A stretch of DNA of 64,000 nucleotides from Armatimonadota bacterium. Lineage in GTDB: Bacteria > Armatimonadota > Fimbriimonadia > Fimbriimonadales > Fimbriimonadaceae. The position numbers were made by a program, and so were the translations under genes. This document shows positions 44,944-54,864 of this stretch, piece after piece. The stretch lies in the NCBI GenBank assembly GCA_029781035.1, contig JAKOXK010000081.1, positions 1 through 64,000 on the forward strand, written 5' to 3'. The notes below the pieces were generated by a model that was not told where the DNA came from, searched no databases, and saw only the letters and a list, made by a program, of their open reading frames with translations. How positions within the stretch are numbered: the stretch's first letter is position 1; each line of letters opens with the position of its first letter.

Positions 44944-45654
44944 GTGATTGGAACGTATGCGTTTATAGGCCTCTTGGGTCTCCTGTCCGCCCATTTCCAG
45001 GACAACGTCGCCATCAAGCCAGCTGACCGTCTCGGAGAAGATTGGTGGAAGCAGCGCCATGAACATTGCGTCGAACTGACCAAGCAGGGCGGTTTCGACC
45101 TCGTCTTCCTTGGGGATTCGATCACCCAGGGATGGGAGGGAGGTGGCAAAGCCGTCTGGGACCGCGAATACGCGCCGCTGAAGGCGGCCAACTTCGGCTT
45201 CAGCGGCGACCGGACCGAGCACGTCCTTTGGCGTCTTGACCACGGAGAGCTGTTGGGCCTCAAGCCAAAAGTGATCGTCATCATGATCGGGACCAACAAC
45301 GTCGGTCACGGATCTTCCAACCCTCAGCAGACCAGTGTCGGAGTCAAGGCCATCATTGGCAAACTTCTCACCGCCATCCCTACCACCAAGATCCTCCTTT
45401 TGGGCGTGTTTCCTCGCAGCAACCAGCCGGACGATGGTATGCGCAAAGCCGTGGATCAGATCAATGGGCTCATCAAAGGATTCGCTGATGGAAAGAGAGT
45501 GTTCTGGGACGACATCGGCTACGCGTTCCTGCGACCAGATGGAACGCTGAGGACCCCTTTGATGCCGGATCAACTTCATCCCAACGATGCCGGGTACGAG
45601 ATCTGGGCCAAAGCCATGAAGCCCGAACTCGACAGACTGATGGGTGGGAAGTGA
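44944..45654 (+). CDS. SGNH/GDSL-family hydrolase
   Basis: About 236 residues from GTG 44944-44946 with an AGG a few bases upstream; a signal-like hydrophobic start follows (YAFIGLLGLLSA). The SGNH blocks are clear: VFLGDSITQGWEGGGKA (block I with nucleophile Ser), FGFSGDRTEHVLWRL (block II), VIVIMIGTNNVGHGSS (block III, N) and PDQLHPNDAGY (block V with the catalytic Asp-x-x-His). This is the platelet-activating-factor-acetylhydrolase-like subgroup, often esterases acting on acetylated glycans. Its place between an Asp-box protein and a GH95-like enzyme supports polysaccharide deacetylation, as an inference. Confidence 0.92.
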   Translation: MIGTYAFIGLLGLLSAHFQDNVAIKPADRLGEDWWKQRHEHCVELTKQGGFDLVFLGDSITQGWEGGGKAVWDREYAPLKAANFGFSGDRTEHVLWRLDHGELLGLKPKVIVIMIGTNNVGHGSSNPQQTSVGVKAIIGKLLTAIPTTKILLLGVFPRSNQPDDGMRKAVDQINGLIKGFADGKRVFWDDIGYAFLRPDGTLRTPLMPDQLHPNDAGYEIWAKAMKPELDRLMGGK

Positions 45655-45658
45655 GTCT

Positions 45659-48544
45659 GTGCGCCCCGCCCTCGGACTCATTGTGACGTTGTTCGTCGCA
45701 TCCATGGCCACGGCAACCACCCACAAGGGCGCGACAGTACCTGGTGTGGCCCAGGCGCTGGCCCATCTGGACAGTTACAACGTCGTCTGGAGCACCCCCA
45801 GCCAGGATGCTTCGGGCTCGATGCCCATTGGAAATGGCGCCGTCGGGCTGAATGCTTGGGTCGAGCCTAACGGCGACCTGGTCTTCCTCATCTCTAGAAC
45901 TGACTCCTGGAGCGAGTGCAACCGACTGTTGAAGGTCGGACGAGTGCGTGTGAGTGTCCGTCCCAATCCGTTCGTGGCTGGGAGATTCAAGCAGGAACTG
46001 CTTCTCCGAGACGGGCGGATCCAGGTGACCGAGGGCCGAACAAAGGTGACTCTGCTCGTGGACTCCGGCCAAGACGTCGCTTGGGTGAGCGTCAAGAGCC
46101 CAACCCGAGTCCAGGTTGTGGCCAAGCTCGAGGACTGGAGGTCTGAGCGGAGAGTTCTTCAAGGGGACGAGCTGTCCTCGAGTTGGACCATGCGTGACGC
46201 CCCCTCGACCATCGAAGTCTGGGAGTCTCCAGACACGGTCGAGACCGGGCCGACAGGAGTGCTCTGGTACCACCGCAACGCTTACTCCGTGGCCCCGATG
46301 ACCCTCGAGAGGCAGGGGCTCGAATCCATCGCGCACCTGGCACCGGATCCCATGCTCAACAACACCTTTGGTGGACTGATGTGGGGTCCCACGTTCAAGA
46401 AGACGGGAGACGGCGCGCTGACGTCACGATTGGCTCAGGAACACGAACTAGCCATCGCAACCCTTCGATCACAAGTGCCGACGGCACAAGAGTGGGTACG
46501 GAGCATTCAGGTGTTGCGCTCGAAGGCAGGCACGTTCACAGCGGCCAAGGCGAGGACTGCCGATTGGTGGAAGGCGTTTTGGAGCCGAAGCTGGGTGTTC
46601 GCCTCGGGAGACACGGCCTTTGACGTGCCCGTGAACAACCATCCATTGCGGCTCGGAGCCGATTCAAGCGGAGGCAGCACCTACGACGGGACGATCAAAG
46701 CAGTCCGCGTTTTCGACGGTCCGTTGGCGGACGAAAGGGTCCACCAAGTCTACGGCGACATTCCTGTCGCCACGCCACCTGGGGTCCAGATGGTTCTTGC
46801 GGTCTGGGCCGACGGCGACCGGGCTGCGGTTCGAACCCTCGACACATTCGACCATCTTGCGACGAGCACCCTGGACGATCCGAGCCCCTACCGCATGACC
46901 TCCCGGTCGCTCGACTTCTCGGGCAAGGGACTCGACGTCCTCAAGAAGGTCCGCTGGCAGCACGGCTTCACGATCACGGCGTTGGTCAAACCACGAAAGC
47001 TTGGTGGACGGATTGTCGACAATGTGACTCCGGGAGGGAGTGACGGCTTTCTCTTCGACACGTACGCTGGAAAGTTGCGCTTGATCGTCGGGCCGCAGAC
47101 TCTCGTTGGTCCCGCGCTGAAGTCAGAGGTTTGGCAGGAACTCGGTGCATCATACGACGGTCGTACCGGCCAAATGAAGCTCTTTGTCGGCGGGAAGCTC
47201 GTTGCCGAGAGTCCGTCGGATTCAACGACCAAGAGCCTGGCGACCCGTGGCTATGTTCTTCAGAGGTGGATGACGGCCTGTGCAGGTCGTGGTGCGTTCC
47301 CCATCAAGTTCAACGGCTCTATTTTCACGGTGGATCCGAAGTACGCTGGCGGTCCCGACTTCAACCCTGACTGGCGCCGTTGGGGCGACTCCTACTGGTG
47401 GCAAAACACGCGGTTTCCCTATGAGCCCATGCCCATGAACGGTGACACCGATCTGATGCGCCCTCTCTTCCGCATGTTTGAGGCGATTGAGCCGATCTGC
47501 AAGGCAAGGGCCAAGCTGTACTATGGGGCCGACGGAGCGTACTTCCCGGAGACCGTGACGAACTTCGGCACCTATGCGAACGGTGACTACCAATGGAACC
47601 GCGAGGGCCATGCCAGTAGTGAGATCCTGAGTCCATGGTGGCAGTACGCCTGGCAGCAAGGGCTGGAGCTCGTCAGCTTGATGATCGACGCCTATGATCA
47701 GACTGAAGACAAGACGTTCCTGCAACACGAACTCTTTCCTATGGCGACCGACGTGCTCCGCTACTACGATCTTCGATTCAAGCGGGACGCAAAGGGCAAG
47801 CTCGTCATCGCGCCGACGCAGGCCGTCGAGACGTATTGGTCGGGAGTGGAAAACGACATGCCCAGTGTGGCGGGCCTCGCCTACGTGACGGACCGCCTCC
47901 TGAGGCTGCCCGGACTCAGCGGTCAAGACCGGAGCTTCTTCAAGAGAATGAAGGACGCTTGCCCCAACATTCCGACGACCGTTCGCGAGGGCGCCAAGAC
48001 CCTGCTGCCTGCAGCCAAATTCGAGGACAAGCGGTCCAACGTCGAGAACCCGGAGTTGTACGCCGTCTGGCCGTTCAAGCTGTTCGGAATCGGACACGGG
48101 AACGAGGCAGTCGCTCAGACAGCCTGGAAGAGTCGGATCGCTCAGGACAACCACGGCTGGCAGTACGACGGTCAGTGTGCGGCCCTGGCAGGACTGACCG
48201 ACGAAGCCAAAGCGTCCCTCATGGAGAAGGCGCGCAACTCAAACCCAGGGTTCCGTTTTCCTGCCATGTGGGGGCCGAACTACGACTGGCTGCCCGACCA
48301 GTGTCACGGTGGCAATCTGATGCTCACCATGCAGAACATGCTGATGCAATGTGTCGGGGACAAGATCTACGTGCTCCCGGCTTGGCCGAAGGACTGGGAC
48401 GTCAGCTTCAAGCTCCACGCCCCACGGAAAACGACCGTCGAGGTTGAGTATGCAGGCGGCAAGGTGAGGTCTGTGAAGGTGACGCCCTCCTCCCGTCGAA
48501 AGGACGTGGTCGTGCAGCCAACCCTCTCGACGTCGGAGCGGTGA
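45659..48544 (+). CDS. GH95-like (DUF5703-type) glycoside hydrolase with inserted LamG domain
   Basis: About 961 residues from GTG 45659-45661; GTG 45644 is the longest alternative and overlaps the upstream stop. A signal peptide ends near ATATT. The N-terminal beta domain contains NVVWSTPSQDASGSMPIGNG, typical of the DUF5703/GH95-like family. At about 306-535 a concanavalin A-like LamG domain interrupts the catalytic domain. The (alpha/alpha) barrel then resumes with GYVLQRWMTACAGRGAFPI and includes MWGPNYDWLPDQCHGGN. The LamG strands appear in permuted order (C-terminal half first). Likely a secreted fucosidase or galactosidase-type enzyme. The family assignment is by motif memory, not by search. 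Confidence 0.82.
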   Translation: MRPALGLIVTLFVASMATATTHKGATVPGVAQALAHLDSYNVVWSTPSQDASGSMPIGNGAVGLNAWVEPNGDLVFLISRTDSWSECNRLLKVGRVRVSVRPNPFVAGRFKQELLLRDGRIQVTEGRTKVTLLVDSGQDVAWVSVKSPTRVQVVAKLEDWRSERRVLQGDELSSSWTMRDAPSTIEVWESPDTVETGPTGVLWYHRNAYSVAPMTLERQGLESIAHLAPDPMLNNTFGGLMWGPTFKKTGDGALTSRLAQEHELAIATLRSQVPTAQEWVRSIQVLRSKAGTFTAAKARTADWWKAFWSRSWVFASGDTAFDVPVNNHPLRLGADSSGGSTYDGTIKAVRVFDGPLADERVHQVYGDIPVATPPGVQMVLAVWADGDRAAVRTLDTFDHLATSTLDDPSPYRMTSRSLDFSGKGLDVLKKVRWQHGFTITALVKPRKLGGRIVDNVTPGGSDGFLFDTYAGKLRLIVGPQTLVGPALKSEVWQELGASYDGRTGQMKLFVGGKLVAESPSDSTTKSLATRGYVLQRWMTACAGRGAFPIKFNGSIFTVDPKYAGGPDFNPDWRRWGDSYWWQNTRFPYEPMPMNGDTDLMRPLFRMFEAIEPICKARAKLYYGADGAYFPETVTNFGTYANGDYQWNREGHASSEILSPWWQYAWQQGLELVSLMIDAYDQTEDKTFLQHELFPMATDVLRYYDLRFKRDAKGKLVIAPTQAVETYWSGVENDMPSVAGLAYVTDRLLRLPGLSGQDRSFFKRMKDACPNIPTTVREGAKTLLPAAKFEDKRSNVENPELYAVWPFKLFGIGHGNEAVAQTAWKSRIAQDNHGWQYDGQCAALAGLTDEAKASLMEKARNSNPGFRFPAMWGPNYDWLPDQCHGGNLMLTMQNMLMQCVGDKIYVLPAWPKDWDVSFKLHAPRKTTVEVEYAGGKVRSVKVTPSSRRKDVVVQPTLSTSER

Positions 48545-49546: not shown

Positions 49547-50683
49547 TCAAATCCCGGCATGGGTGGCTCGGCGCTTGTTGACCTTGTCTCGAACGACCAG
49601 TCCGCCGACCCCAAGAAGGATCATGACCGCGAACAGAATTCCATTGACGAACTTCTGACTACGGACCAGGTGTTCGAACTCGTCCTGCAACCAGGGCGGC
49701 TCGTAGTGCGGCACAGGCTGATAGCCGTTCCAAAAGTCCGGGTCGGTGTCTGGATGACGGCCTTGACGCAAACGTACCAACATGAAGTCTTGCCGGTGTT
49801 TGACATAGGAATCGGCGTTGGCCCTCAATGCCTGAAACTCACGCTCCTCCAACGAGTCGAATGTGAGGTGTAGAAACGAGCTTCTGTCCGTCCAGATGGC
49901 TTTCCTGCCCTGTCTGAACAACTCTCGTGCCCGTAATTCTGCCAGGTAGAAGGTTGTCTTGCTCTTGACTATCAGCCATCCGCTCTTCGCCAATTCGGCG
50001 AAAGCATCCGGACTCTCCCACGCCCCGCCGAGGACGATCAGTCCGGCCCAGCCGTTGACGATCTCCTTTTTCTTGAGCCCGTCGACGGCCAGGGCACCGG
50101 ATTCGGTTGGCTTCTCGGTTCCCCCTACGACGGCGATGATCCTGTCCATGGCGGCCAGCTGCACAGGCTCCCTTCCAAAGTGCGCGTCAGGCTTGATCCG
50201 GATGGCTTTGGCAATGTGGTCGCGACCGGCTCTGGCCTCCTCGACTGACCGGATGCTGGCACCTTTGTGCATCCAATCGTGAAAGAGCACGGTGCCTAAG
50301 TTAGCGTGGTAGCTGTACCAATGGTAGCTGGGAGCCTGGTTTCCCAATTTGTCGAGGACTTTCCTCTTCCGATCCATCCAGATGACCGCCATTTCATCTT
50401 GGCCAAGCCTGTCGAAGGCGACGGCTATGTCGTCGTAGTTCTGAAGGTTGGTCGGATCAGAGACCACGGCTGGAATGAGACGGTCGATGCGCATCCGATA
50501 GTACAAGGTTGGATTGCGGTCAAAACGGCCGACAATCGTGTCGATGAGGCTTGGAAACTGGCGTTGCGCTTGTCGCAGAGAGTCCGAATCGTTGAGGCAT
50601 GCAGTAGACGATGCCGCGAAAACCAATGCCAAGCCAAGGGTGGCTTGAGCGCGGACCAGAGACGTTCGGCTCGGATCAATCAT
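49547..50683 (-). CDS. Putative lipoprotein with C-terminal membrane segment
   Basis: About 378 residues from ATG 50681-50683. The longer frame to 50776 is the shadow of the selenoprotein gene. The N-terminus TLGLALVFAASSTACLNDSD resembles a lipoprotein signal with Cys after S-T-A, though the -3 serine is not optimal. The body is helical with TPR-like stretches (NYDDIAVAFDRLGQDEMAVI, and a block near VEEARAGRDHIAKAIRIKP). One membrane helix lies near the C-terminus (GILFAVMILLGVGGLVV). Its start overlaps the upstream SelW-like gene by eight bases, implying coupled translation. The function is unknown. Confidence 0.78.
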   Translation of the reverse strand: MIDPSRTSLVRAQATLGLALVFAASSTACLNDSDSLRQAQRQFPSLIDTIVGRFDRNPTLYYRMRIDRLIPAVVSDPTNLQNYDDIAVAFDRLGQDEMAVIWMDRKRKVLDKLGNQAPSYHWYSYHANLGTVLFHDWMHKGASIRSVEEARAGRDHIAKAIRIKPDAHFGREPVQLAAMDRIIAVVGGTEKPTESGALAVDGLKKKEIVNGWAGLIVLGGAWESPDAFAELAKSGWLIVKSKTTFYLAELRARELFRQGRKAIWTDRSSFLHLTFDSLEEREFQALRANADSYVKHRQDFMLVRLRQGRHPDTDPDFWNGYQPVPHYEPPWLQDEFEHLVRSQKFVNGILFAVMILLGVGGLVVRDKVNKRRATHAGI

Positions 50684-50939
50684 GGAACGACCGTATCTCA
50701 CGAAGACGGGCCAAGACCTCGCCAGGTTCGGCGTGGCGGCCGAGTGCTTTCTTGGAGAATATGTCGACGCCGTCACAACTGACTTCGAAGACTCCGGCTC
50801 CAGACGGTACGAGCAGAATGCTTTTGACAGGGTGGACTTCGCTGACAGTGGGACGGAACGCCTCGATGATTTCGGCCGCCAGACCGACGGCCCGTGGGGT
50901 GTAGTTTCAAGCTACGCAGAAGGCGATCTCGATCTTCAT
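50676..50939 (-). CDS. SelW/Rdx-family selenoprotein with in-frame UGA (C-V-A-Sec)
   Basis: An 87-residue thioredoxin-fold protein whose 11th codon is TGA (50907-50909). It begins MKIEIAFCVA, then Sec, then NYTPRAVGLAAEIIEAF. It continues with ILLVPSGAGVFEVSCDG and DIFSKKALGRHAEPGE, matching the SelW/Rdx family (C-x-x-U/C, Y-x-P-R-A, G-x-F-E-V, F-S-K-K-x-x-G-R). The four-residue redox motif C-V-A-U sits at the usual place after the first strand. A stem-loop with GGUCU in its loop follows 21 nt after the UGA. Such proteins are thought to act in thiol redox reactions. Translation of UGA as Sec is inferred, and requires SelA/B/D and tRNA-Sec, which are not in the window. The gene overlaps the lipoprotein start. 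ATG 50937-50939 has only a weak GGGA upstream. Confidence 0.88.
50874..50892 (-). promoter_or_regulatory. Candidate bacterial SECIS hairpin in the selW-like mRNA
   Basis: In the mRNA, GGCCGUC (50892-50886) pairs with GGCGGCC (50880-50874), seven pairs including one G-U, closing the loop GGUCU. The loop begins 21 nt after the UGA, inside the reading frame. E. coli fdhF has a GGUC(U) apical loop at a similar distance, and a guanine in that loop is needed for SelB binding. The fit is by eye, without a covariance search. Confidence 0.72.
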
Positions 50940-51015
50940 GTCCCAGCATAGCAGGCAGCATGAGCGTCCTTGATGGCGCTCAGTGCCGACCACGCTAAAC
51001 TGGGTCAGGTGTCGG

Positions 51016-52494
51016 ATGTTGGCTTTCTTGCTCGCTGCGACCGTCTCCCTCGCGCCCCAGGTCGTTGTGGTCGACGCCAGACACGAGGATGAGGGATCCC
51101 AAGTGGCCCTTGCGACTCTCGAGGGCCAGGTCAACGTCAAGACGGCCCGGCTCTTCGTGGTCTACCGTGACGAAGACGCACCTTGGGTGCCTGTCCTTGA
51201 GAAGCGTCTAGGATGCCGGTTCGAGCCAATGAGTCTGAACCAAGCGCTCGAGCACTTCCGTACGGACGTGAAGGGTCAAGTCTGGTACAACCCCGACCCT
51301 CTGTTCCGGTTCCAAGTCAACTTAGCGACGACGATCGCTGGTCTGGAGCACGCCATAGCCACGCCGCGTGACCTCGGGCTCAAGACGCTCGTTGATTTGC
51401 ACGACAACTGGCTTCCCAAGGACGATCTGACCGTGTCGGCAATCGAGAACTGGCTGCCGAAGACGAACCTGAGTGCGGTCGCGTATCTTGACGACGGCCT
51501 TCCGTTCTTTCGGGACTTGATTGCCCAAAAGGAGTGGTTTGTCTTTGACCTCGACCCGCTCAACAACGAGTTTGAAAAGGGGCAACTCGCCAAGGTGCTT
51601 GCTCGGTACCCACCACTGACCCCTGTCTTTGGCTGGGGCTCGGCCAAGTACGCCGATCCCCAAAAGGGCCAGAACGATGTGGCGGTCGAAGACGCCCTTG
51701 TGGACCGGCTCTCGCGGCGAGACCAATTCCTGGTTCCGGCCGACTTCGCCGACAACGTCAGCTTCTTCTCGAGGCTGCCTGCTCCCAAGAGGCTCGAACA
51801 GGCCAAGACGGGCCGAAAGGTGCCAACGGCCCGTGCCTATGTGACGTTGATCGTGAGCGACGGGGACAACCTACAGTACGATCTCAACCACATGAGGGCA
51901 ACGTGGAGCGACCCGGCGCGGCCCAAAATCCCGCTGGGCTGGACGGTCTCACCGCAGTGGGCGAACCTTGCCCCGGCCGTACTCGACCAGTACTACCAAG
52001 AGGCCAAAGAAAGAGGAGGTTGGGACGAGCTTGTAGCAGGGCCGAGCGGCTTTGGGTATGTGAACCCAGGCTCGATGACTGCGGACGCCCTGGGAGCGTT
52101 CTGCAAGAAGACAGCGGACGCGAGCCGCAAGGCCGACTTGACGTCCGTGGTGACATTGGACCAGCGGGGTCGACGGATCGAGGACGTGCGTCGTTGGGTC
52201 GCAGCCTATGGAAAGGCGGGAGTCAAGGCTCTGTGGCTCGCCGACATGCCTCCCCACGAAGGCGAAGCAGGAGGGACAACGTATCTGGGCGAAGCCGTGC
52301 GGCTGGGCAAGGACGCGGCAACGGCGGCCAGAGCCGTGAACGGGCGCGCCAAGGACCACAGATTCACGTTCGTTTACGTCTTCGCCTGGGAGCTGTCTGC
52401 CCCGATGCTAGCCGACTTTGTCGCGGGCCTGGATAAGGACATCGCCATCGTGTCGCCCTCCGAGATGGCGGGTTTGATGCGGGCCAAGAGCTAG
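51016..52494 (+). CDS. Secreted GxGYxYP-family protein
   Basis: About 492 residues from ATG 51016-51018 with CAGGTG eight bases upstream. A signal peptide (MLAFLLAATVSLAPQ) is followed by a domain of strands and helices (TARLFVVYRDEDAPW, LVDLHDNWLPKDDL). The family-naming motif appears as GPSGFGYVNPGSM, with N in the place of the second aromatic. TLIVSDGDNLQYDLNH and GWTVSPQWANL are also typical. These proteins are found near glycosidases and are thought to act in polysaccharide processing, with no firm activity. It is divergent from the SelW-like gene (76 bp between starts) and ends in CTAG, shared with rnhA. Confidence 0.85.
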   Translation: MLAFLLAATVSLAPQVVVVDARHEDEGSQVALATLEGQVNVKTARLFVVYRDEDAPWVPVLEKRLGCRFEPMSLNQALEHFRTDVKGQVWYNPDPLFRFQVNLATTIAGLEHAIATPRDLGLKTLVDLHDNWLPKDDLTVSAIENWLPKTNLSAVAYLDDGLPFFRDLIAQKEWFVFDLDPLNNEFEKGQLAKVLARYPPLTPVFGWGSAKYADPQKGQNDVAVEDALVDRLSRRDQFLVPADFADNVSFFSRLPAPKRLEQAKTGRKVPTARAYVTLIVSDGDNLQYDLNHMRATWSDPARPKIPLGWTVSPQWANLAPAVLDQYYQEAKERGGWDELVAGPSGFGYVNPGSMTADALGAFCKKTADASRKADLTSVVTLDQRGRRIEDVRRWVAAYGKAGVKALWLADMPPHEGEAGGTTYLGEAVRLGKDAATAARAVNGRAKDHRFTFVYVFAWELSAPMLADFVAGLDKDIAIVSPSEMAGLMRAKS

Positions 52495-53277: not shown

Positions 53278-53375
53278 ACAGGGCTTGAGGGGCGCTGCGA
53301 CCCCGAGGGGCCAGGCTCAAGCCTGTCGAGCCGCCGAGAAAAAGGGGCGGCGAACAACGGCGCTCGCGATCATGC
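53278..53375 (+). promoter_or_regulatory. S-adenosylhomocysteine (SAH) riboswitch
   Basis: The conserved core is present in order: CTTGAG of helix P1, then GGGCGCTGCGAC, a short P2 with CCC/GGG, GCCAGGCTCAAG closing P1, a second hairpin, and AACAACGGCGCTC, whose GCGCT can pair with the 5' GGCGC to make the pseudoknot. This matches the published consensus (GAGGAGCGCUGC, CCAGGCUC) found upstream of ahcY genes. It lies 80-177 bases upstream of ahcY on the same strand. SAH accumulation is expected to turn expression on. Confidence 0.85.

Positions 53376-53454: not shown

Positions 53455-54864
<1,410 letters not shown>

Follow-up and report, generated by a model that had tools for sequence, protein, structure and literature searches.

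What is encoded by a minus-strand frame broken by a single in-frame TGA, at a locus where the standard-code listing of open reading frames returns only short fragments or antisense frames? The locus lies in the window, the whole stretch of 64,000 nucleotides analysed here. The initial annotation had described a continuous frame with TGA at codon 11, the TGA falling on the second redox position of a C-x-x-U/C motif with family residues on both sides, and had argued that ordinary gene calling reports mere shadows of it; it read the locus as a SelW/Rdx selenoprotein gene. Translation with TGA as U gives MKIEIAFCVAUNYTPRAVGL...LREIRSFHD, 87 residues followed by a terminal TGA, and the sole internal TGA is indeed codon 11, at the second place of the CVAU motif (C8 to U11), while the fragments of the standard-code listing are the shadows described. 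A selenocysteine codon is normally a stop, and this is why ordinary gene finders miss selW. Inspection by eye revealed no clear ribosome-binding site before the ATG. The frame is not a product of chance, since an identically placed TGA occurs in 17 other genomes. Other read-through frames within the window are mechanical candidates, none of which is convincing. The features of the locus and its neighbours are collected in Table 1.

Table 1. Positions of selW, its recoding elements and neighbouring features in the window
Feature	Position	Strand	Remarks
selW, 87-codon selenoprotein W (Rdx family) gene	50676..50939	(-)	ATG start; TGA stop 50678-50676
In-frame UGA, codon 11, read as selenocysteine	50907..50909	(-)	C8-V-A-U11
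SECIS hairpin core within coding sequence	50874..50892	(-)	7-base-pair stem; numbered from the UGA (its U = 1), the stem joins bases 18-24 to 30-36 (50892-50886 to 50880-50874); apical loop GGUCU 50885-50881; invariant G 50884
Lipoprotein-like gene, 378 aa	49547..50683	(-)	No Pfam match; downstream of selW, 8-base overlap with its stop (ATGATTGA)
GxGYxYP putative glycoside hydrolase gene	50983-52494	(+)	Carbohydrate-active neighbour; divergent from selW
SAH riboswitch (RF01057, 45.9 bits)	53281-53372	(+)	Directly upstream of S-adenosylhomocysteine hydrolase gene, 53455-54864
DUF5703/GH95-like protein gene	45644-48544	(+)	Carbohydrate-active neighbour; protein with LamG domain

Read through the TGA, the product matches the Pfam Rdx profile (PF10262) with an E-value of 1.8e-15 and 57.3 bits (cut-off 22.6), and because profile positions 1-73 align to residues 2-80, the family resemblance spans both sides of the TGA. 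This alignment with the Rdx/SelW families had been proposed as a check, and SelW also passes the cut-off of TIGR02174, the SelTWH subfamily (46.3 bits, cut-off 34.2). Its score against the NCBIfam equivalog SelTWH_Campy (NF041051) is 73.7 bits, below the cut-off of 88, and by profile scores SelW is assigned to the wider SelTWH subfamily and not to the SelTWH_Campy equivalog. The solved Rdx protein 2fa8 matches it at an E-value of 5e-9. An AlphaFold2 model, for which 16 sequences were the input, has a pLDDT of 95.6 and consists at its N-terminus of a strand (residues 2-8) and a helix (residues 14-27), with C8 and U11 between them. The best Foldseek matches of the model are 2oka, 2obk, 2fa8, 2p0g, 2ojl and 3dex, all of them Rdx/SelW-like, and mouse SelW (2npb) ranks lower. 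The predicted fold is the thioredoxin-like fold of Rdx proteins.

Is the host equipped to decode UGA as selenocysteine? Its genome (3.42 Mb, 96% complete) encodes a tRNA-Sec (74.7 bits, cut-off 47) with an ARAGORN anticodon of TCA (UCA); the Rfam tRNA-Sec search also picks up ordinary tRNAs, and the weight is carried by the score together with the ARAGORN call. SelA (448 bits, cut-off 268), SelB (310.7 bits, cut-off 242, with the C-terminal SelB winged helix PF09107) and SelD (336 bits, cut-off 125) are likewise present. The initial annotation had called for a genome search for these four components and had named their absence as an outcome that would speak against its reading; all four were found. 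The formate dehydrogenase-like genes of the host have no in-frame stop, and hence give no sign of Sec. The host SelD itself has an in-frame TGA in its catalytic region (gene L016, G000:C64:3179-4108), as do, at the catalytic region, the SelD genes of nearly all Sec-trait relatives above the cut-off (L037-L065); SelD genes without an in-frame TGA occur in at least G040, G004 and G008.

The TGA is a stable property of the gene across the phylum. In a set of 61 genomes, comprising the host genome and its relatives, all 18 SelW homologues have one TGA each, at the same place. Applied to 291 genomes of the phylum, the Rdx profile retrieved 39 genes; one TGA is present in 38 of them, and the sole exception has a Cys codon (L079, in genome G122). 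The G122 genome carries selA, so that Sec was lost from its Rdx gene and the trait was not. A bacterial selenoprotein is recognised by an in-frame UGA that is kept, or exchanged for Cys, in homologues, and this is the pattern of the 38 UGA genes and the one Cys gene. Homologues lacking any Sec or Cys codon at this position and showing decay had been the other outcome named as adverse, and what the relatives have is a retained TGA and no decay. Among the 61 genomes, SelW was detected in 17 of 36 that are selA-positive versus 1 of 25 that are selA-negative (Fisher p 2e-4, uncorrected for kinship), the selA-less genome with SelW being G054, which is 73% complete. A profile search added three further SelW genes in this set (G032, G048 and G050), all in selA-positive genomes. 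The median dN/dS of SelW is 0.35, a value that is indicative only, synonymous distances being near saturation. In genome G010, selA lies approximately 0.6 kb from selW. A peptide-pattern scan of genome contigs returned only distant relatives, one of them with TGA: the Acidimicrobiia MAG CP070681.1 encodes a SelW homologue (L066) of 42% identity in which the TGA is identically placed.

The coding sequence just past the UGA folds into a SECIS hairpin, and its covariation is evidence beyond what the initial annotation had to hand. Across 18 species 89% of the cells of the structure are paired, rising to 97% across 29 species for the inner stem and loop pair. The covariation score in the 29 species is 0.447, versus 0.189 in shuffles, and slid controls gave 0.03-0.172. 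The apical loop is mainly GGUCU or AGUUU: loop base 2 is G in all 29 species, and bases 1 and 4 are A-U, G-C or C-G in 27 of them. Leucine codon choice (CTN or TTR) tracks loop base 1 (Fisher p 6e-6, uncorrected for kinship). With the protein kept constant, the hairpin is more stable than synonymous codons would predict (combined Z -6.6), and synonymous-codon draws revealed no such excess at the other offsets scanned along selW. In the Cys gene of G122 the hairpin has gone (-1.2 kcal/mol, the mean of the Sec forms being -11.8). Three more distant Cys Rdx genes have intermediate folding energies (-7.8 to -10.4), and so folding energy by itself does not discriminate. The apical G of the hairpin is the counterpart of the E. 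coli G23 that SelB binds (PMC8659212). We regard as evenly balanced the joint reading that Sec is ancestral and hard to replace in the SelW of this phylum, given Sec in 38 of 39 genes, and that the covarying loop pair 1-4 would allow the geometry of SelB recognition to be read from sequence alone. A genome-wide search for more SECIS elements with a SelW-trained covariance model found SelW alone to be significant. The next-ranking hit of that search, a SECIS-like hairpin (L108:1501, G000:C10:41688-41726; E-value 0.8) was rejected, as it follows the ordinary TGA stop of a peroxiredoxin/TlpA-like frame; read-through there would gain about a dozen residues with no Cys close by, and the hairpin probably arose by chance.

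Might the TGA instead mark a damaged gene? An ordinary CxxC Rdx gene that had acquired a nonsense codon, or been misread in sequencing, would look just like selW in one genome, as a single base change turns TGC or TGT into TGA. However, the same TGA is present in 18 of 18 homologues from 61 genomes and in 38 of 39 from 291, the protein sequence is conserved on either side of it, and the hairpin covaries. Independent genomes sharing the TGA in effect refute this explanation, for which we see scarcely any room. A general reassignment of UGA to Trp or Gly in the host would likewise open the selW frame, but a dedicated tRNA-Sec, SelA, SelB and SelD exist, the anticodon of the Trp tRNA that was found is the usual CCA, and the internal TGAs found in the lineage occur in SelW and SelD, in each case at the catalytic region. 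Both selW and the S-adenosylhomocysteine hydrolase gene of the window terminate at TGA, and a codon that terminates genes in the same window in effect refutes general reassignment, which we consider even less credible than a damaged gene. We consider a pseudogene, a sequencing error or a general reassignment of UGA practically excluded.

A further alternative accepts a true selenoprotein gene and gives its UGA an additional role as a regulated switch: full SelW would be produced when selenium is present, and otherwise the stop at codon 11 would reduce translation of the downstream lipoprotein gene. Polar effects are plausible, given the 8-base overlap between the downstream start and the selW stop, but other SelW genes lack this neighbour, and we judge the switch unlikely. 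The overlap (ATGATTGA) suggests translational coupling of selW and the lipoprotein-like gene in the host genome. The coupling claimed in the initial annotation is sound with respect to a genuine overlap, and does not extend to relatives: no homologue of the lipoprotein gene adjoins other SelW genes, and a conserved selW-lipoprotein operon was rejected.

The preferred reading is that the minus-strand frame 50939-50676 is a functional gene for selenoprotein W, with its UGA decoded as Sec via SelB, Sec-tRNA(UCA) and the SECIS, with a probability of about 0.97. The overall reading of the initial annotation is thus supported by the machinery, the conserved TGA and the covarying SECIS. At the ribosome, a SECIS hairpin engages SelB together with Sec-tRNA, which leads to the decoding of UGA as Sec (PMC9312934). 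In the host, the hairpin within the coding sequence, beginning 14 nucleotides past the UGA, would recruit SelB, which with Sec-tRNA(UCA) would decode codon 11 as selenocysteine. The product would be an 87-residue thioredoxin-like (Rdx) protein in which the C-x-x-U loop joining strand 1 to helix 1 is expected to serve as a thiol/selenol redox centre. From what was observed (frame, family, fold prediction, Sec machinery, conserved UGA and SECIS covariation), we infer Sec insertion in the host organism; redox activity of SelW is presumed by analogy with the family, and its substrates are probably protein or small-molecule thiols.

How does this gene compare with known systems? The SelW selenoprotein kind is already established in bacteria, as had been claimed: Sec-containing SelW-like proteins have been catalogued since 2006, with few Cys forms in Sec-using organisms (PMC1794560), unannotated selW genes were reported in epsilonproteobacteria (PMC4607533), and for Campylobacter jejuni selW full-length translation past the UGA was detected by Ribo-seq and proteomics (PMC11955535). 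What is added here is conservation across the host phylum. In the literature searched we found no report of a SelW selenoprotein for the host lineage or phylum, and the phylum gains a real, systematically overlooked selenoprotein. Together with their SECIS elements, the approximately 38 natural Sec-SelW genes form a clean set for studying SelB recognition and the retention of Sec over Cys. Like C. jejuni selW (PMC11955535) and the catalogued genes (PMC1794560), the host gene encodes a small, single-domain PF10262 protein with Sec at the CxxU position and had been left unannotated; unlike the known bacterial SelW-like selenoproteins, it is from another lineage, and it scores under the Campylobacter equivalog cut-off. 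It shares the fold of the Cys Rdx proteins of proteobacteria (2fa8, 2oka, 2obk and 2p0g) at approximately 30% identity, whereas those proteins have Cys where the host SelW has Sec and need no SECIS; compared with solved Rdx proteins, the host SelW has approximately six extra residues before strand 2. The bulged U17 of the E. coli SECIS was not identified in the selW SECIS. Like the SECIS of the E. coli formate dehydrogenase genes, that of selW is an intragenic hairpin just past the UGA with an apical G that SelB binding requires (PMC8659212), but in the host phylum the loop is mainly GGUCU or AGUUU, and its bases 1 and 4 covary.
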